From positions 62,001-126,000 of the forward strand of contig CANQXF010000005.1 of NCBI GenBank assembly GCA_947627695.1: a stretch of DNA of 64,000 nucleotides. Reading direction: 5' to 3'. The position numbers and the translations under genes are program-made. The notes beneath the pieces were generated by a model. The model saw only the letters and a program-made list of their open reading frames with translations, did no database searches and was not told the DNA's origin. Below are positions 26,483 to 56,277 of the stretch, piece after piece. Each line of letters begins with the position of its first letter. Positions within the stretch are counted from its first letter, which is position 1. The DNA comes from an uncultured Ruminiclostridium sp. (GTDB lineage Bacteria > Bacillota > Clostridia > Oscillospirales > Ruminococcaceae).

Positions 26483-27066
26483 CTGCATTAGGAAAAATCC
26501 CCCTCGTTTCACGAGGGGGATTTTTTGCAAATGGGAAAAGGCTTCGTCCGTCGCCTGACGGCTCGTCCTCAGCTCTTTTCCTTGCACGGTTTTTTCTTGA
26601 ATTGCCCTAAAGGCAATTCATTTTGCTTCGCAAAACCGAAAAAACCGTGAGGTGGCATTAAGAGAAGTCCCCTCGTTTAACAAGGGAATTTTTTGCAAAT
26701 GGGAAAAGGCTTCGTCCGTCGCCTGTCGGCTCGGACTCGGCTCTTTTCCTTGCACGGTTTTTTCTTGAATTGCCCTTAAGGCAATTCATTTTGCTTACGC
26801 AAAACCGAAAAAACCATGAGGCTGCATTAGGAAAAATCCCCTCGTTTAACAAGGGGATTTTTTGCAAATGGGAAAAGGCTTCGTCCGTCGCCTGTCGGCT
26901 CGTCTTTGCCTCTTTTCCTTGCACGGTTTTTTCTTGAATTGCCCTAAAGGCAATTCATTTTGCTGACGCAAAACCACGGGATTGGACACGTTGTGCGGTC
27001 AGGTAGGAGGTTCTTGTCGTCCGTCGCCTGACGGCTCGGACTCGGCTCTTTTCCTTGCACGGTTTC
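26483..27066. repeat. Three tandem copies (period about 170 bp) plus a partial copy of a multi-hairpin repeat
   Basis: gcatta(a/g)ga.. anchors at 26485, 26655 and 26824; each unit has a terminator-like hairpin, a ggaaaag/cttttcc stem, and cacggttttttc/gaaaaaaccgtg enclosing two hairpins. Confidence 0.93.
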
Positions 27067-45911: not shown

Positions 45912-46595
45912 TTATTGTTCTGCTTTTTGTACAGAATTACATATTGCAATTATTTCATTTTGACTAAATTCCTTGCTTGCAACGAACTCGATAAAATAAT
46001 CGCCGTTATCAAAAAGAACGTAATGCGAACCGTTATGCTCCTGAAAATACATTCCCTCACAGCCGTTTACGTCAATTGCATAAGGCGCCTGCAAAAAGCT
46101 CTCGGTGTTTAATCTTTTTCCCTGAACAGAACCCTTTGTCATCTGACAAAAACGAAATTCTTTTTCTGCATTGTACAAATCAGTATAGAGAATTTCAACT
46201 ATATGCTCTTCGTCCAGCATTATCTCATAGCTATACCCGCTAAGGTCCGCCCCTATCTCATATCTTTCCTCCAGAGTCAGGGGCGCATCTGAAATATCTG
46301 TCGTTTTGATGAGCGAATATGTATCGTACGATTCAACTTTAAAGCTGCTGTGGCTTATTGCCGCATACGCAGCCGTCGACAGCGACGCAAGGATAACAAC
46401 TAAAAAAGCAAGCTGGACGAGTTTTTTCAGCGGAACGCTATGTCCATAAAATACAGTTCTGCCGTCCATACTTTTTATAAGCCGATTGGCTTTTCTTTCA
46501 AAGCTTCTGGAAAATTCACAGCTTTCCGTATCCTTTTCGTATTCTTCAAGCTGACGGTTCATCGCGTTTTCCAACGCCGTTTTAAGTTCATTCAT
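45912..46595 (-). CDS. Putative anti-sigma factor (DUF4367-like, single TM)
   Basis: Single TM near residue 80, C-terminal DUF4367-like stretch, overlaps the sigma gene. Confidence 0.7.
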   Translation of the reverse strand: MNELKTALENAMNRQLEEYEKDTESCEFSRSFERKANRLIKSMDGRTVFYGHSVPLKKLVQLAFLVVILASLSTAAYAAISHSSFKVESYDTYSLIKTTDISDAPLTLEERYEIGADLSGYSYEIMLDEEHIVEILYTDLYNAEKEFRFCQMTKGSVQGKRLNTESFLQAPYAIDVNGCEGMYFQEHNGSHYVLFDNGDYFIEFVASKEFSQNEIIAICNSVQKAEQ

Positions 46596-47139
46596 ATCCG
46601 TTCTCCTTCAAAATAGCCGCCAGCTTTGCTCTCCCGCGCCTCAGCCGCTTTTTTGCGTTTTCATAGCTTATGCCCAGCAGCTTTGCCGCTTCTTTTAAAC
46701 TGTTATCCATATATGAGGTCAGGTATATTATGTCGAAATAATTTGGCGGAAGCTGCTGTAAAGCCTTTTCAAGCTGCTCTGCGCTGTATTTTTTATCTAA
46801 CTCTTCGTCAGGGAGAGGGCTTTTATCCGAAGCTTCAAGCTCCTCAATATCTATGTCGGCTTCATAACGGCGGATTATCCTTTTCAGCATATTGTAAGAC
46901 GCGTTCCTGACAATAATAACCACGAAAGCCTTAGTCCGGGGACAATTTATTTCGGATATTTTTGAAAAATTCTTTGCGATACTGATAAAGGCGTCCTGTA
47001 ATGCGTCCTCGGCGTCCTGCTGATTTTTCAGTATATCAAAAGCTACCTTGTACATAAGGTTCCTGTATGCGTAATACAGTTCTTCAAATCGCTTTTTGTC
47101 CTCGTTTGCGCAGATGTATCCCAACGCTGCCGCAAGCAT
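46588..47139 (-). CDS. ECF-type RNA polymerase sigma factor
   Basis: FEELYYAYRNLMYKVAFDILKNQQDAEDALQDAFISIAKNF; LPPNYFDIIYLTSYMDNSLKEAAKLLGISYENAKKRLRRGR; SD aaaggaggcg before ATG 47139. Confidence 0.92.
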   Translation of the reverse strand: MLAAALGYICANEDKKRFEELYYAYRNLMYKVAFDILKNQQDAEDALQDAFISIAKNFSKISEINCPRTKAFVVIIVRNASYNMLKRIIRRYEADIDIEELEASDKSPLPDEELDKKYSAEQLEKALQQLPPNYFDIIYLTSYMDNSLKEAAKLLGISYENAKKRLRRGRAKLAAILKENGYE

Positions 47140-47219
47140 ACGAACGCCTCCTTTTTTGTTGATGGCGGAAAGAACGCTTTCCGCAGAGCTTATCGTTAAA
47201 TGAATTATAGCATAATTGC

Positions 47220-47370
47220 AGGGGGAGTTGTCAATATATTCTGATAATAATAACAACGAAAGACTTGGTTTGGGGACACTTTTTTCGGATTTTTTTGAAA
47301 AATTTTTTGGGGTGATGATAAGGGCGGACTGCTGTTTTTGCAGTATATCAAGGGCTGACTTGTATATCAA
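47220..47370 (-). pseudogene. Decayed partial duplicate of the ECF sigma region-2 coding sequence
   Basis: MIYKSALDILQKQQSALIITPKNFSKKSEKSVPKPSLSLLLL parallels LMYKVAFDILKNQQDAEDALQDAFISIAKNFSKISEINCPRTKAFVVII; DNA also similar. Confidence 0.7.
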
Positions 47371-47421
47371 TTAAAACTGCATAACATAAAAACACGCTCC
47401 CGTGAATTGGGAGCGTGTTGA
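47370..47421. repeat. 52-bp direct repeat, left copy; contains the putative cas operon terminator
   Basis: attaaaactgcataacataaaaacacgctcccgtgaattgggagcgtgttga, identical to 53904-53955. Confidence 0.95.
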
Positions 47422-47517: not shown

Positions 47518-49725
47518 TCAAGCATTCAGAAAACCCGTTTCAAATCTCCGCTTATCAAGCACGCCGCGCATATATCCCAGAAAATCATCATAGCCAAGCG
47601 TCCAGCGGTATACTTCGGGTATGATCTCGGATAATTCATACTTTGCTGCTCTGCTGCGGCGTATGGTCACGGAGCATTCTTGGATCATGCGCGGACCTCC
47701 GCCGCCGCGAGCGATCATATCGGCGATATGATCATCTGTTACAGCAATTACAGCGTCGTTTTCAATAGGCTCAAATTCTTCGTCCATACTTTTGAAGCTC
47801 ATATCTTCTTCAAGGCTGATAAAATGCTTGATATGTCTTAACGTCACACCGCCCTCAATAGTTATTTCATCTTCAAGAGAGCTTGTGCTGAGTTCGGGAT
47901 TTATCTTGACCCCGTTTTTTAAATACCTTTCAAGCACCAAAGCAGAATATTTCAGGTTTTTATTCTGAGTGAGCATTTCATCATCAGCAAACGAAAAGCT
48001 CCACATTTCTGCGCTATCGCACTTACCGTCACGGTTTACTCTGCCTGCCGCCTGCAAAAGCGAGAGTAGCGAAGAGTTTTCGCGAAAGCCCGTTCTGAAC
48101 GAAAAATCCATGCCTGCCTCAACACATGAGGTCGCCACCAGTGTCCAGTTTGTGTCGTTTTTGTCATTCTTCAAACGCGTCATTATGTGATTTAAAGCTG
48201 AAGCTCTGTCCTTTGGGGTAAGAGCTGTTGACAAATGCTCTACGCATTGCCGCCCGTATTCAGTGCAAATATCATTTGCTATCACCGCCGCCGACTGCAC
48301 CGTGTTGACAATCAAAAGGCGCGGTCCTGCGCTTTCCTGCACGATCTTTATAAGTTCACCGCGGGAAAGCGCGTTTGGCAAAGTGCGAAACGTCACTCTT
48401 CCCGCCTCGTAATCGGCAAGCTTTTTATGCAATTCACTGTCCGTCAGCTCCGCTATCTCAGGGTGCGGCAATTTAAGGGAATATAAGCTTCTGAGTTCCC
48501 AAAACCGAACAAGCGAACCCGATGCCAACACCCATCTGCAATTCCAGTCTTCGGCGAGGGTATTCATCCACTGCCACGCCAGCGGCATCAGTTTTATCGG
48601 CAGCGAGCAGTGCGCCTCATCAAGAAAAATCACACTTCCGGGCAGTTCGTGAAGTCGTCTCAGGGCGGACGGCTTTGAAGATGAAAGCGTTCCGAAAAAT
48701 GCCGCCGCAGTTGTCACAATAATAGGTGCGCGCCAAAGAGAGGTCAGGTGACGGGTTTCTTTGCTCTGAAAATCCGCACGAAAATGCAGCTCAGCCACAA
48801 CATCTTCGGGATTTTCGTCTGGCAGTATCAACGCTTTTCTGTACACGTTTACCGATTGTTGTATGATGTTTGTAAACGGCAGGATCACGAATATTCTCCG
48901 CGCATTATTCTCTATCGCCTGCCTTAAAAGATTAGCCATAACAGCGGTGGTTTTCCCTGAGCCTACGGGGCTGTCGCAAACAGAAAACGGTGTGTCCACA
49001 CTTATATTGCGGCACACATTGTACATTTCCCGGCGAAGTCTGTTGCGAGAGTCATTGCGGTCATTACCGCCGAGGAAATTAACATACCTATCGAGCGCTT
49101 CAAGACGTTCTTTCGCTCTTAGCGGAGGTATGTTGTTTTCATTTACTGTGTTTCCGTAAACTGCCGCCGTGTCTGAATGGTCTGCGTCGGCAAGACAAGA
49201 CAATGCCATTCGTAAAAACATAGGGTTTCCGTTAACGCGAGGTTCAGGTTTAGCGGTTTCATTCGGGCAAAGAGTTTTGTGCGTCAAGAGAAGTTCGGGA
49301 AGAGATTTTTCAGCAGCTTTGCGCACGTCAGCTTTATTGTCACGAAAAATCAGATTTCCACGGCTTTGCTCTGCGGATATATCGGGAAGTCCCCTGTGAT
49401 GGGAATAAACCGCAAGTGCGGAATACATCGCACCATTTGAAAGCAATTCTGCGCATCCCGCATCAACGTGATTTATAGGAAGACGTGCGTGTTTTTCATC
49501 ATTCGTGTGAAGCACCGCTTGATTTTCTCCGAGAAGCTTGCCAAGGTCATGGAGCGCGGCTGCGTTTCTCACGATACATTCAAGCTCGCCGCTGAATTTC
49601 TTCGAGTATTCCTCCGCTTTAGCGGCATAACCGGCGGCGGTTTCGGTGACTGCAGTTATATGTGCTTGATATGACTGTGCCTTAAATCCGTCCTTTTCAC
49701 TGTGAGCAAGGTATTTTTCTTTCAT
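47518..49725 (-). CDS. cas3: CRISPR-associated helicase/nuclease Cas3 (HD + DExH)
   Basis: AALHDLGKLLGE, YSHHRGLPD, SPVGSGKTTAV, VIFLDEAHCSLP, LLQAAGRVNRDG. Confidence 0.95.
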   Translation of the reverse strand: MKEKYLAHSEKDGFKAQSYQAHITAVTETAAGYAAKAEEYSKKFSGELECIVRNAAALHDLGKLLGENQAVLHTNDEKHARLPINHVDAGCAELLSNGAMYSALAVYSHHRGLPDISAEQSRGNLIFRDNKADVRKAAEKSLPELLLTHKTLCPNETAKPEPRVNGNPMFLRMALSCLADADHSDTAAVYGNTVNENNIPPLRAKERLEALDRYVNFLGGNDRNDSRNRLRREMYNVCRNISVDTPFSVCDSPVGSGKTTAVMANLLRQAIENNARRIFVILPFTNIIQQSVNVYRKALILPDENPEDVVAELHFRADFQSKETRHLTSLWRAPIIVTTAAAFFGTLSSSKPSALRRLHELPGSVIFLDEAHCSLPIKLMPLAWQWMNTLAEDWNCRWVLASGSLVRFWELRSLYSLKLPHPEIAELTDSELHKKLADYEAGRVTFRTLPNALSRGELIKIVQESAGPRLLIVNTVQSAAVIANDICTEYGRQCVEHLSTALTPKDRASALNHIMTRLKNDKNDTNWTLVATSCVEAGMDFSFRTGFRENSSLLSLLQAAGRVNRDGKCDSAEMWSFSFADDEMLTQNKNLKYSALVLERYLKNGVKINPELSTSSLEDEITIEGGVTLRHIKHFISLEEDMSFKSMDEEFEPIENDAVIAVTDDHIADMIARGGGGPRMIQECSVTIRRSRAAKYELSEIIPEVYRWTLGYDDFLGYMRGVLDKRRFETGFLNA

Positions 49726-50594
49726 CTTACTGTAAGGTCAACGCAGCTCTCAACACGGCTCAGCAAATTTTCAGGGAGAGCAGTCACATCCTCATAATCG
49801 CTCCATGAAGTTGAAGGCTCTTTCGGATCGCCGAGTTTTTTCGGTGTAAGCGCCTCTATAAGCAAATGTTCAGGGCAGCTTCCAAGCAAGTTTTTATGCT
49901 CTATATACCATGCGTGACGTATGCGTACATCGGGGCGAATAGCAGATCGGTTCATATCGTAAGCATACGGAATAAGCAGCTTTAACAGTTCAATGTCGTC
50001 CGCTGTACAGCCTGTTTTATGGGCAAAATTCGGATTTACAAAGAAACTCATTGTATATACTCCATGTTCTGCCACTCTGAAAGCAAGCGGCGCCATACCC
50101 GAATTTTTACCCTCCTGAACACCTGCTTTATTGGTATTAGATTCACGAAGAATGTTTATCGGGGCAAGCGAAACACCAACGCCGAACTGGACAACACCGC
50201 TTTTTATAAATCCTTTATCGCTTTCACCTTCAAGGAATGTATTTCCGAAAACGCGAGCGTCCCAGTATTTGCTTACAAATTCGCTTTCCATGAATTTAGA
50301 AGGGTCGTTTCCCATTTCGTTTTTTATTGTTTTACGGTCGCGTCCGCGCTGTTCAAGAATATTATAGCGACTTTCGTTGTTCAAAAACTTCTCAGGGAGC
50401 GACTTGAAGAACGGCGAGCTGTGATCCTCCAAAAGGTCGCGAAGTTTTCGCTTGAACGACACAGGCGAGATCTCTCCGCAGCCGCTGCTGTCTCGCTGGC
50501 GCGGGTCGCTTTCGCGATCGGGGTCACCGTTAGGGTTTGAGTTTACTGTTTCAATTACAAGCTGTCCTGTTGCTCTTTTTATTTCATTATTCAT
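49722..50594 (-). CDS. cas7: Cas7 (Csd2-like, type I-C family)
   Basis: GQLVIETVNSNPNGDPDRESDPRQRDSSGCGEISPVSFKRKLRDLLE, DARVFGNTF. Confidence 0.9.
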   Translation of the reverse strand: MNNEIKRATGQLVIETVNSNPNGDPDRESDPRQRDSSGCGEISPVSFKRKLRDLLEDHSSPFFKSLPEKFLNNESRYNILEQRGRDRKTIKNEMGNDPSKFMESEFVSKYWDARVFGNTFLEGESDKGFIKSGVVQFGVGVSLAPINILRESNTNKAGVQEGKNSGMAPLAFRVAEHGVYTMSFFVNPNFAHKTGCTADDIELLKLLIPYAYDMNRSAIRPDVRIRHAWYIEHKNLLGSCPEHLLIEALTPKKLGDPKEPSTSWSDYEDVTALPENLLSRVESCVDLTVR

Positions 50595-51015
50595 TGATAA
50601 TATCCTCCGTTACATTATTGTTTTCTGTATTTTCTTTTTTCGGGAATTTTGCAAGGTAGCCTATAAAAAGCTGCGCTTTCTCCTCATCGCCAAAGCGTAC
50701 GTCGGACTGCCATGCCTTATGCAGCTTCGTTGCTGTATTTTCATACAATGATAAGAGCCAAGCTGCCCGCCAGCTTTCTTTTCCTTCGGCTGTTTCATTC
50801 TTTGCACGATAAGACTTTGCCCAGGTAATATACGGATTCATTCTTGTACCGAGCGTATTCAGCGTGCGGACGGGATACTCTGCCGCAGACCGGTACATTC
50901 CGCTTCCTGCAAGCTGCGTCGGCAGATCGCCGTCGCGAACAACTTTGCAATACAATGCATGAAGTTCATCTGACACTTTTAAAAGCTGTCCTAAAAGGTA
51001 TGGTAGGTTATCCAT
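50587..51015 (-). CDS. Predicted internal Cas11-like small subunit, translated from within cas8c (142 aa)
   Basis: AAAAGGAGAATTATATGGATAACC: strong SD correctly spaced from an in-frame internal ATG at 51015; size and position match known Cas11c. Confidence 0.55.
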   Translation of the reverse strand: MDNLPYLLGQLLKVSDELHALYCKVVRDGDLPTQLAGSGMYRSAAEYPVRTLNTLGTRMNPYITWAKSYRAKNETAEGKESWRAAWLLSLYENTATKLHKAWQSDVRFGDEEKAQLFIGYLAKFPKKENTENNNVTEDIINE

Positions 51016-52671
51016 ATAATTCTCCTTTTGTATGCCCGCACGATAGAGTAAAATTCCCATAAGCGAGAGCATTTCTTTTATGTAGTTTATAAATGTATGG
51101 CTGTTCTTTTCGTCATTTTTCCGCAGCTTTACAGCAGCCATTTGATTGCCGACAAATCCGCCAAGCGTTGTTGCCTGGTTCGCTGTAAGGTGCAGATCGG
51201 CGGCAGCTGATACAGAGGGTTCCAGCATAAGTTGGATCCCATGGTATTTCGGTATCAGTGTTATCTTCTTTTCTTTGGCATTTTTATCCTTTCGCTTTAT
51301 GAGTTCGCCGTTTTGCTTCCAAAAGCGGTTCAGAACATCTGCGGCGGTTGTCGGAAAAATAACACGAGGCTTTCCGAACGGAAATTCGGGGAGATTTTCT
51401 CCGCCCGCCGTCCATTGCTCACTCATCACTTCAAGCTCCCGCGCGTCGGTATGATGGGAATATATGACCTTTGTGCGCCCGTCGTCGATTTTCTTCAAAA
51501 TAAAAATCTGAAGTCCGTCAGCCTTTGAGTCTGAACCGATTCCCTTTCCATGCCTCAGTTCGTCTATAAGACTCTTTGCGCAGGCTGAAAAAACGCTGTC
51601 GCCGCTGCACGAAAATGTATTTACAAACGAAATCGGCGTTTTGGGAAGGTGCAGCGGATAAGCGAAAAGTATTTCAGATTTATCGGTATTTATCCAGGTT
51701 TTCCCCTTTTGTTCCTCGCTGCCCAGCCATTCTAAAGCCGCCTGAAGATTTTTTCGGTTTTCAGTGGAGATAGGATAGCTTGCACTTTCAAATCGCCCGT
51801 ATCTTTTTTGACATTCATGCTCTTTAAACATTGTGCGAAGTTTAACAGTAATACCCGACAGCTTTACTTGAGGCATAGGGTCTTTTATCGGCGAATACGG
51901 CGAACCGAAAGCATCTAAATCTCTCGCGTCAGCGTTTTGTGTGCCCTTGTTTTCAGCTTCAAGTAAAGCCTCATTCAATTCTGTCACAAACATATCGCTG
52001 ACGGCGGGAATGCCCATTTCTATGAGGCGAGGTGTTTCCAGCGCAACACTTATATTATCTTTGCTGGTTTTCTCCGTTTTTTCGTTATCCTTGCAAAGAA
52101 ACAAAATTCCGAGTGCGATCGAAATATCCTTGCGCTCCGCAAGCATTGCAAACGCTCTGCTTTCCAGTTCTTGATGAAGGACCTGCGGGTCGATAAACAT
52201 TCGGCTTTCCTCTGTCAGAATTTTCAGCGGCTCAAAATCCGGGACAAGTTTTTCGAGTTCGTTCGGCATTCTTTCCATGTGGCCTTTATATAAATCAAGG
52301 AAACTTTTTTTGCCCCAGTTGTTAATTTTACACCAACTGCGGATTTCATCGAGTTTATCAGTGTCCAACGACTCTGCAGTTAGTTTTGAAATATCGCCTT
52401 TAATTGAATCATCAGTCACGAGATAGAGAGGAGTAAGATTCATTATTGGAAAAGTACCGTGATTTGAGCCGTATTTTCTAAGAAGTTTGCCGAGTTCTTT
52501 GTCAACGGTCGATATTTCCAAAACCTTGCCGCCTTGTATGGTAATGTGATAGCAAGGCCGTTTTGCATTTATATTCGGAATTACAAGATATTTCCTGTTC
52601 CAGACATTCGCCTTGACGCCTGCGCCGTTCATCGCCTCAGACAAATTATACAGTTCATTTATCACAGACAA
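50587..52671 (-). CDS. cas8c: Cas8c-like large subunit (Csd1 type, 694 aa)
   Basis: Operon position between cas5 and cas7; ADLHLTANQATTLGGFVGNQMAAVKLRKND... and NLPYLLGQLLKVSDELHALY C-terminal helical region. Confidence 0.8.
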   Translation of the reverse strand: MSVINELYNLSEAMNGAGVKANVWNRKYLVIPNINAKRPCYHITIQGGKVLEISTVDKELGKLLRKYGSNHGTFPIMNLTPLYLVTDDSIKGDISKLTAESLDTDKLDEIRSWCKINNWGKKSFLDLYKGHMERMPNELEKLVPDFEPLKILTEESRMFIDPQVLHQELESRAFAMLAERKDISIALGILFLCKDNEKTEKTSKDNISVALETPRLIEMGIPAVSDMFVTELNEALLEAENKGTQNADARDLDAFGSPYSPIKDPMPQVKLSGITVKLRTMFKEHECQKRYGRFESASYPISTENRKNLQAALEWLGSEEQKGKTWINTDKSEILFAYPLHLPKTPISFVNTFSCSGDSVFSACAKSLIDELRHGKGIGSDSKADGLQIFILKKIDDGRTKVIYSHHTDARELEVMSEQWTAGGENLPEFPFGKPRVIFPTTAADVLNRFWKQNGELIKRKDKNAKEKKITLIPKYHGIQLMLEPSVSAAADLHLTANQATTLGGFVGNQMAAVKLRKNDEKNSHTFINYIKEMLSLMGILLYRAGIQKENYMDNLPYLLGQLLKVSDELHALYCKVVRDGDLPTQLAGSGMYRSAAEYPVRTLNTLGTRMNPYITWAKSYRAKNETAEGKESWRAAWLLSLYENTATKLHKAWQSDVRFGDEEKAQLFIGYLAKFPKKENTENNNVTEDIINE

Positions 52672-53336
52672 TCCTCCCTTCTCGGGAACTCAAGAACGCC
52701 TTTATGAATGACGATGTCAGTGTCATAAACCGCGCAATATTGCGAATTATAGCCGTCGTTAAACACGCTTCTGAGCATTGACGGAATACAAATGTCGGGA
52801 AGCTCGGCACATACACGTGTGCTTTCACGAAAAGGTCCGAAATACGACACTGTAAACTCGCTCCACCCGAGAGAAAGCGTTGCATAAGACTGCCCGCACG
52901 CCAAGCGGCGATTGAAGATCTCCTGGTAAGCATGACCCGGTGAAGTCGTTGAGCTGTCCCACTTTCTTGCAGATCGAGACAATTTGTCTTTATCAGGATT
53001 TGGGATCACATCGGCGTAAAGCCGATAGCAAACGTCAAGCAAGACAGTCGCAAACATCCGGTAATTATTGCCCTCTTTTACATCCTTAGCCTTGCGCAAA
53101 GGTCCGCCATAATTCGTGGCATATGAGTGGAAAACAGGCACACTGCACAGCTCAACTTTTCGAGGAATTACAAGTACGGCAGGTCCCCAGAGAACACTCT
53201 CAAAAAGCGCACGTACAGCGGAATACGTTGGTGCAGGATAACTGCACGGAGAATCTCCGCTGTCGGGCCTTGTCCATATCGCAGTGTTCCCTGCAACTTC
53301 CATTGCAACCGGATATGTTTTCTTTACCAAAAACAT
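52662..53336 (-). CDS. cas5c: Cas5 (type I-C family; likely crRNA-processing)
   Basis: PVAMEVAGNTAIWTRPDSGDSPCSYPAPTYSAVRALFESVLWGPAVLVIPRKVELCSVPVFHSYATNYGGP; SD aaaggag upstream. Confidence 0.88.
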   Translation of the reverse strand: MFLVKKTYPVAMEVAGNTAIWTRPDSGDSPCSYPAPTYSAVRALFESVLWGPAVLVIPRKVELCSVPVFHSYATNYGGPLRKAKDVKEGNNYRMFATVLLDVCYRLYADVIPNPDKDKLSRSARKWDSSTTSPGHAYQEIFNRRLACGQSYATLSLGWSEFTVSYFGPFRESTRVCAELPDICIPSMLRSVFNDGYNSQYCAVYDTDIVIHKGVLEFPRREDCL

Positions 53337-53699: not shown

Positions 53700-53885
53700 T
53701 CCATAGTTTGGGGCGCGCTGCGATTTTTCGGTTTTGCGTAAGCAAAATGAATTTCCTTAAGGGAAATTCAAGAAAAATCGCACATGGAAAAGAGCTGAGG
53801 GCAAGCCGTAAGGCGACGGACGAAGGCTTTTACCGTTTGAAAAAACGCCTTCGTAAAACGAGGGCGTTTTTCCTAACGACGTGTG
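53700..53885. repeat. Dispersed, inverted copy of the multi-hairpin repeat found at 26.5-27.1 kb
   Basis: cggttttgcgtaagcaaaatgaatttccttaagggaaattcaagaaaaatcg...ggaaaagagctgagggcaagccgtaaggcgacggacgaaggc; same hairpin order with compensatory changes. Confidence 0.88.
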
Positions 53886-53903: not shown

Positions 53904-53955
53904 ATTAAAACTGCATAACATAAAAACACGCTCCCGTGAATTGGGAGCGTGTTGA
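53904..53955. repeat. 52-bp direct repeat, right copy; also a terminator for the 54049-54468 gene
   Basis: Identical to 47370-47421. Confidence 0.95.
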
Positions 53956-54611: not shown

Positions 54612-54698
54612 TGGTGCCGCTGACCGGACTTGAACCGGTACGGTATCGCTACCGAGGGATTTTAAGTCCCTTGTGTCTGCCTATTCCACCACAGCGGC
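54612..54698 (-). tRNA. tRNA-Leu (anticodon TAA), CCA encoded
   Basis: Reverse complement GCCGCTGTGGTGGAATAGGCAGACACAAGGGACTTAAAATCCCTCGGTAGCGATACCGTACCGGTTCAAGTCCGGTCAGCGGCACCA with long variable arm. Confidence 0.95.
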
Positions 54699-54789: not shown

Positions 54790-56277
54790 TTATGCTATCC
54801 TCGTTATCACCAAATGCGCGGAAACAGGCTGAGTTCCTCCTGCGGAAGGCGTGATTATCAGCGACGAGGGATTGTCAGCGGGATTTCTGAGAGTTATAAC
54901 GGAGTTTACAGCAGTGGTGGTTATCAGGGAGATACCCGTTATTCCCGACGCTCCCGAGGCGCGCCCTGCAACGGTGTAGTCAAGCTCGTCGCCGTTAAGG
55001 GTCAGGACGAGTTGTCCCGCCTGATTTACGGGAACGCTGAATTCCACCTTATACGTTCCTATTTCGGGAAGATTGAAGGAGTCGTCAGTCACCCTCGTTA
55101 TAGTGCCGTCGTTTGAGGACGTTCTGGGGAAGCTGACGTCTGTTCCCGGAGCTACCGAGTCCGCATTGTCAGAGGGCATAAGAGCGTAGAAATCAGCGTA
55201 ACCCAATACGCCGCCAGGCTCGCCCTGAGGTCCTACGGGACCTTGGGGACCTGTTTCACCTTGAGGACCTGCGGGACCCGTTGCGCCTGTCGGGCCTGCG
55301 GGGCCTTGGGGGCCTGTTTCACCTTGTGGGCCTGCGGGACCTGTTGCACCTGTCGGGCCTGCAGGGCCTTGAGGTCCTGTTTCGCCTTGTGGACCTGCGG
55401 GGCCCGTTGCGCCTGTCGGGCCTGCAGGACCTTGGGGTCCTGTTTCGCCTTGTGGACCTTGGGGACCTGTTGCGCCTGTCGGACCTGCAGGGCCTTGGGG
55501 GCCTGTTTCACCCTGTGGGCCTGCGGGGCCTGTTGCGCCTGCTACGCCTGCGGGGCCTTGGGGTCCTGTTTCGCCTTGTGGACCTTGGGGACCTGCTGGG
55601 CCTATCTCGCCCTGAGGTCCTTGGGGTCCTGTTTCGCCTTGCGGGCCTGTGGGGCCTTGGGGTCCTACGGGACCTGTTTCGCCCTGCGGGCCTTGAGGAC
55701 CGACGGGACCTGTATCACCTTGGGGTCCCTGAGGACCTGCGGGTCCTGTTGCTCCTGTGGCTCCTGTGGGTCCCTGAGGTCCTACGGGTCCTGTTTCGCC
55801 TTGGGGCCCCTGAGGGCCTACGGGTCCTGTTTCACCCTGAGGGCCTTGGGGACCTTGCGGGCCTGTTTCACCTACGGGTCCTTGTGGACCTATAGGTCCT
55901 GTCGCACCTGTCGGACCTTCAACGCCCATTGGACCCTGAGGACCTACGGGGCCTGTTGCGCCCACCGGTCCTCTTGGTCCAGTTGCACCGGCAGGGCCGG
56001 GAAGTCCCATAGGTCCCTGCTCGCCGGCAGGTCCTGTTTCGCCCTGAGGTCCCTCGGGACCTCTTTCGCCCTCGGGTCCGGGAAATCCCATAGGTCCTCT
56101 CGGCCCTGCGGGTCCCATTGGTCCCATCGGTCCCATAGGACCCATTGGTCCGGGAGGACCGGGGATATACTCGGGACAGCAGGAATTGCCGTTATTGCTG
56201 CCGCAGCCGCAGTCGTTGTTACGGTTGTTTCTGCCGCAGCTGTTATTGTTATTGGAATTGTTATAGAACGAATTCAT
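54790..56277 (-). CDS. Collagen-like (Gly-X-Y) repeat surface protein with BclA/C1q-like C-terminal domain
   Basis: About 300 residues of GPxGPx/[12 protein letters not shown] triplets; Asn-rich N-terminus; C-terminal beta-rich domain ending AHLVITRIA. Confidence 0.93.

Follow-up and report, generated by a model that had tools for sequence, protein, structure and literature searches.

A variant type I-C CRISPR interference module without array or adaptation genes in an uncultured Ruminiclostridium, and a candidate source of its guides

Results

A four-gene variant of the type I-C effector operon

The window analyzed here is a stretch of 64,000 nucleotides (G000:C5:62001-126000) from a genome, G000, that is assembled into 67 contigs totaling 2.70 Mb. 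On its minus strand, between positions 53330 and 47518, lies an operon of four intact open reading frames in the order cas5-cas8-cas7-cas3, each neighboring pair overlapping or abutting. An earlier note, made from the sequence alone, had taken these overlapping frames for an I-C-like effector module, and PADLOC profiles agree with that reading. The features of the locus are as follows.

54612..54698, minus strand: tRNA-Leu(TAA), lying upstream of the module; at locus L010 this tRNA forms the left border of the element that carries the module
53904..53955, minus strand: upstream copy of a 52-bp perfect direct repeat, a terminator-like hairpin
52662..53330, minus strand: cas5 (Cas5c-like, 222 aa from TTG); PADLOC Cas5c, E = 8.6e-19
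50587..52671, minus strand: cas8 (Cas8c variant, 694 aa); PADLOC Cas8c PDLC01562, E = 1e-204 over 4-688
50587..51015, minus strand: putative internal Cas11c-like frame within cas8 (142 aa), with a Shine-Dalgarno sequence and ATG
49722..50594, minus strand: cas7 (Cas7c-like, 290 aa); PADLOC Cas7b, 1.5e-51, and Cas7c, 1.6e-34
47518..49725, minus strand: cas3 (HD nuclease and helicase, 735 aa), the last gene of the operon; PADLOC Cas3c, 1.5e-99
47370..47421, minus strand: downstream copy of the 52-bp perfect direct repeat

The cas5 gene starts at a TTG that follows AAAGGAG (ATG codons at 53336 and 53339 are possible alternatives), and its relatives have a TTG start at the same place. The signature large subunit of type I-C, Cas8c, is recognized by PDLC01562, and a Cas5c and Cas7c backbone is present without Cas6 or any additional Cas gene in the operon. 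The NCBIfam matches to I-C families are mostly below threshold for Cas5 and Cas7 (Cas7 matches Csd2 at 6e-34, under the curated cutoff), and Cas8 matches no NCBIfam model, that of Csd1 included, no Pfam family, and no PDB sequence. A second PADLOC Cas8c profile, PDLC01647, reaches it only weakly (9e-5), and hhalign against canonical Cas8c gives a very weak match (E = 0.002, probability 13%). An AlphaFold2 model of Cas8 built from four close sequences had a pLDDT of 33, too low for a fold search. The 694 aa of this Cas8 had been thought unusually long, but they are ordinary within the lineage described below, where related proteins have 678 to 713 aa.

The module also departs from canonical type I-C in its surroundings. 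It lacks the order cas3-5-8-7-4-1-2, and tblastn gave no sign of cas4, cas1, or cas2 anywhere in the 64-kb window. Apart from a collagen-like gene, repeat searches of the window returned only unrelated repeats; the tail of the I-C repeat is no more frequent there than expected by chance, and Rfam has no match at the module locus. The absence of adaptation genes and of an array, as the earlier note had it, therefore holds for the window. Nor does the module resemble the I-C CAST systems, in which Cas3 is lost and Tns genes are linked: here Cas3 is intact, and no Tns gene is apparent among the open reading frames neighboring the module.

Conservation, a putative Cas11, and the Cas5 active site

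The HD residues, Walker A, DEAH, and QxxGRxxR motifs of Cas3, reported as intact in the earlier note, are conserved in the eight variant Cas3 proteins compared (one has DESH), and motif III reads SGS instead of SAT throughout the lineage. Among the four close copies of the module, dN/dS is 0.04 to 0.21 in all four genes (dS about 0.2 to 1.2); judged by these substitution rates, the array-less copies are under purifying selection.

Known I-C systems make Cas11c from an internal start in cas8 (PMC7684278). The variant cas8 has AAAGGAG-N6-ATG at codon 553 (51015), with a predicted C-terminal product of 142 aa, and the same internal Shine-Dalgarno sequence and ATG occur in all four close copies (the window, L009, L010, and L011), with a weaker form in L023 and L038. 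We regard this internal frame as encoding a putative Cas11c-like small subunit.

Whether Cas5 still processes crRNA is less clear. At the alignment positions of Tyr46, Lys116, and His117 of Bacillus halodurans Cas5d, which we take to be catalytic, the Cas5 of the window has Leu, Gly, and His; since two of the three positions are changed, processing by the module itself is uncertain. We rejected the idea that these changes prove reliance on a resident Cas5c, because genome G180 (88% complete) shares them and shows no other Cas5.

A rare lineage with its own gene order

Searches of genome contigs and whole genomes found nine further loci of this lineage, ten with the window. Three are close (L009 in G001, from the genus of G000 and on the same contig as G715; L010 in G002; L011 in G003), with Cas8 80 to 83% identical. 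Four belong to other members of the family (G180, G151, G249, and G093, 4 of the 397 other genomes sampled), and one, G755, to a different family of the same order. The last, MT837094, is an unannotated faecal scaffold of 9.8 kb, possibly bacterial or an element fragment, that carries all four genes (Cas8 38%) and, on this short fragment, neither cas4/1/2 nor an array; it was the sole match of the lineage Cas8 among phages, and viral contigs and plasmids gave none.

The order cas5-8-7-3 is found in all ten loci as far as the contigs extend, and it is thus a trait of the lineage. The earlier description of a cas3 moved to the operon end is right in that cas3 comes last, but no local rearrangement took place. 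Cas4, cas1, cas2, and an array adjoin the effector genes in G180, which has a complete locus (cas5-8-7-3-cas4-1-2-array) of the same effector lineage (Cas8 54%), and apparently in G002. The modules in G000, G001, G003, G249, and G755 stand alone, with no repeat pair near any of them; the G151 and G093 loci are cut by contig ends. Because a complete form exists in G180, cas4-1-2 and the array were probably lost from the stand-alone copies. The lineage is a rare gut-bacterial variant of type I-C, present mostly as stand-alone copies. It had been asked whether such an order was already catalogued. In the literature that we searched, which covers the field in part, we found neither this I-C gene order nor any stand-alone I-C module described, but the Cas8 lineage itself is already modeled by a PADLOC profile.

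Insertion sites and signs of mobility

The copies of the module occupy different insertion sites. L009 and L010 share DNA (84% identical) that leads into a serine recombinase gene with Resolvase and Recombinase domains. In L009 the shared stretch begins precisely at the 3' end of the tmRNA, and in L010 at that of tRNA-Leu(TAA). In L011, the C-terminal part of a recombinase lies 280 bp before cas5. The module of the window lies 1.3 kb downstream of tRNA-Leu(TAA) and is flanked by the 52-bp repeats, the sole exact pair in the genome; no recombinase remains beside it, and no empty site was found for an element bounded by these repeats. Nor did a search at tRNA-Leu, where neighborhoods differ between members of the genus, yield an exact empty site. 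Mobility is well supported for the lineage by the recombinase linkage in relatives and no more than suggested for the window copy, beside which no recombinase is left. The tRNA-Leu looks like a defense hot spot.

Other genes and repeats were seen around these sites. In L010, an AAA_21 ATPase (AbiEii-like; L010:5674-6939) between the recombinase and the Cas module is likely further defense cargo of the element, and another genus member has a type I restriction-modification-like cluster on the 3' side of the same tRNA-Leu (L057:2-6565, G384:C7). In the window, a collagen-like protein of GPxGPx repeats (495 aa; 54790-56277, minus strand) is encoded directly upstream of tRNA-Leu, and a sigma-70-family frame (46588-47370, minus strand), whose N-terminal part looks like a decayed duplicate of its own region 2, begins right at the downstream 52-bp repeat. 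A dispersed repeat (TCGTCCGTCGCCTGACGGCTCG..CTCTTTTCC) occurs in four copies about 136 to 169 bp apart at 26516-27065, with a related further copy upstream of the Cas module at 53780-53830.

Other CRISPR loci in the same genome

The earlier note had called the module array-less, which is true of the locus but not of the genome. Cas1 searches found two adaptation loci in G000. The canonical I-C locus on contig C2 is complete, with cas3-5-8-7-4-1-2 and then an array, and all 36 occurrences of the repeat tail GTGGATTGAAAT in the whole genome lie inside this array. C12 carries an I-C effector set in canonical order, without adaptation genes, immediately upstream of a mini-array of roughly three copies of a different repeat, ending ..GTGTGAGTTGAAAT, and C11 has a II-A locus. 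Arrays elsewhere were sought through Cas1, Cas7, Cas8c, and the repeat tail, a strategy that could miss orphan arrays whose repeats are unrelated. Of the 35 spacers of C2, 20 were searched against phages, and none matched.

These loci were examined for two outcomes raised by the earlier note. One was that a complete I-C locus elsewhere would make the module a simple duplicate. Such a locus and array do exist, but the module does not duplicate them: its Cas7 is only 29% and 38% identical to those of the two other I-C loci, and its Cas8 is nearly unrecognizable beside canonical Cas8c, with a weak result in the profile comparison of the two groups. The other was that crRNAs would come from a distant array, an idea favored by the complete canonical locus with its 36-repeat array on another contig, although its use by the module is our inference.

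Within these loci, the canonical Cas7 on C2 has a highly charged low-complexity insertion (KNKTDKDKDKNKGKGKESENETEKEEEEKG; L003:10894-11949), and the repeats of the C2 array (L003:6400-8730) have a constant tail but a G/C stem and a T loop of varying length (CCCCCTTG, CCCCCTTTG, CCCCCCTTTTG). In the C12 mini-array (repeat GTCACGCCCCACACGGGGCGTGTGAGTTGAAAT), which follows cas3-5-8-7 at L012:4563-10600, the last repeat is degenerate.

Repeat tails and co-occurrence with canonical arrays

The complete relative G180 points to the kind of repeat that this effector lineage uses. Its own array has the repeat GTCGCTCCCCACACGGGGAGCGTGGATTGAAAT with the tail GTGGATTGAAAT; repeats of this class thus serve the lineage, and the C2 array of G000 has the same tail. 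Cas5 of type I-C leaves an 11-nt 5' handle (PMC3727216); given the common tail, the handle would be identical. Tail identity is nevertheless weakly discriminating, since tails of this type are common in I-C.

Canonical I-C arrays ending in GTGGATTGAAAT occur in G000, G001, G003, G249, G151, and G755, and thus elsewhere in the genome for all five of the clearly stand-alone modules. No canonical Cas8c was seen in G180, which has its own array. G093 is an exception, with a lineage module (contig cut) and neither cas1 nor a second Cas5. Canonical Cas8c was found in 128 of 398 family genomes and in 6 of the 7 other sampled genomes of the genus, and because it is so frequent there, co-occurrence is phylogenetically confounded and the association of module and canonical array is no more than suggestive.

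An apparent effector exchange in G002

In G002, cas4 starts on the same contig 96 bp after the variant cas3, and it is 85% identical to the canonical cas4 of G000 and 74% to the cas4 of G180. This contig stops within cas4 and has an exact 77-bp overlap with a second contig, on which cas4 is completed and cas1, cas2, and an array are present. The Cas1 encoded there is 87% identical to the canonical Cas1 of G001 and 55% to that of G180. We found no canonical effector in G002 for this array; the only other Cas5 in G002 adjoins an array with a different repeat. The simplest reading of these sequences is that the variant effector in G002 now serves an array of the canonical lineage. The two contigs are joined by an overlap in the assembly, and other paths through it may exist. 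In L010, the short interval that separates cas3 from cas4 was considered as a scar of a replaced cas7, but its match was insignificant (E = 0.5) and the idea was rejected.

Discussion

We consider it probable that the module is a mobile interference cassette of a type I-C variant, without memory genes and horizontally spread, that draws on the memory of the resident I-C system. From the presence of its four genes, their conservation, and their co-residence with the canonical system, we infer that crRNAs would be shared and that the PAM requirements would fit. Pre-crRNA from the C2 array would be cut by a Cas5, either the resident Cas5c or the one that the module encodes, and the crRNA would be loaded through the common 11-nt 5' handle onto a complex of Cas5, Cas7, Cas8, and possibly Cas11. 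Target recognition would then recruit the module's own Cas3 and lead to degradation of the DNA. One memory would thereby be read by two effectors of divergent sequence, and anti-CRISPRs or PAM escape that stop the canonical one could be overcome.

Other explanations are less probable. A decaying remnant of a formerly complete locus, without present function, would fit the existence of the complete form in G180, but the intact frames and low dN/dS of the close array-less copies, together with the conserved catalytic motifs, make this very improbable. It is also possible, if unlikely, that the guides come from another source, such as the C12 mini-array, other RNAs, or hidden single repeats, perhaps in the service of gene regulation. 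The mini-array does exist, and regulatory roles of Cascades are known more generally, yet C12 has effector genes of its own directly upstream, the stand-alone copies lack nearby repeat pairs, the locus has no Rfam match, and a conserved Cas3 nuclease speaks against pure regulation. The earlier suggestions of regulation, plasmid control, and self-guide RNAs found no positive evidence in our searches, and the intact Cas3 argues for DNA degradation.

About equally unlikely is a selfish role, in which the complex, carried by an element, would use resident crRNAs chiefly to its carrier's advantage, either by clearing rival elements or by diverting guides from the canonical effector. The module is indeed found on recombinase-bearing elements in relatives, and as it has no memory of its own, any guide must be derived from the host. 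Against this stand the intact Cas3, which a pure decoy would not need, the G002 locus, where the module seems to be joined to a canonical-lineage array as its apparent effector, and the present lack of a recombinase next to the window copy. The interference cassette using resident memory remains our preferred reading.

The module shares with type I-C the Cas5c, Cas7c, and Cas3c homologs, the lack of Cas6, a putative internal Cas11-like start in cas8, and, in its complete relative G180, repeats of the I-C type. It differs in that cas3 comes last rather than first, Cas8 is out of reach of the canonical Csd1 model, most copies lack cas4/1/2 or an array, and Cas5 active-site positions are altered. 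One precedent is in Marinomonas, where a horizontally acquired III-B system uses type I-F crRNAs (PMC5576922). There too an acquired interference module supplements a resident type I system through resident crRNAs, but the sharing was shown experimentally and runs between types, whereas the sharing proposed here would occur within type I-C. Provirus-borne I-B systems of haloarchaea (PMC12596717) are likewise element-borne effectors without cas1/2/4 beside a complete system of the same subtype; they have their own spacers, whereas in our module the array is missing as well. Type III-G loci, for which trans recruitment of crRNAs is predicted (PMC12669027), resemble it in lacking both adaptation genes and arrays, but their effector is of type III, not type I with Cas3. 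Finally, the I-C systems on the integrative and conjugative element pKLC102 of Pseudomonas aeruginosa (PMC7913775) are also carried by a mobile element, but they mostly have arrays, and they have cas1 (frameshifted in some lineages), neither of which accompanies the window module.

A broader reading, which we put forward tentatively and hold to be somewhat short of an even bet, is that these modules are a class of mobile "memory-free" I-C effectors that move between gut Clostridia on serine-recombinase elements, live off the canonical I-C arrays of their hosts, and are able, as in G002, to replace the canonical effector before cas4-cas1-cas2 and the array. Effector and memory would then be exchangeable modules within one subtype. 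If this is true, type I-C, a subtype that ranks among the commonest in CRISPR, includes a mobile effector that needs no memory of its own and offers a second, divergent way of acting on the same spacers, and one could test whether type I systems that share crRNAs thereby counter anti-CRISPRs or escape mutants, as has been proposed for type III. It would also be a warning that "orphan" cas loci labeled defective by annotation tools may work in trans.
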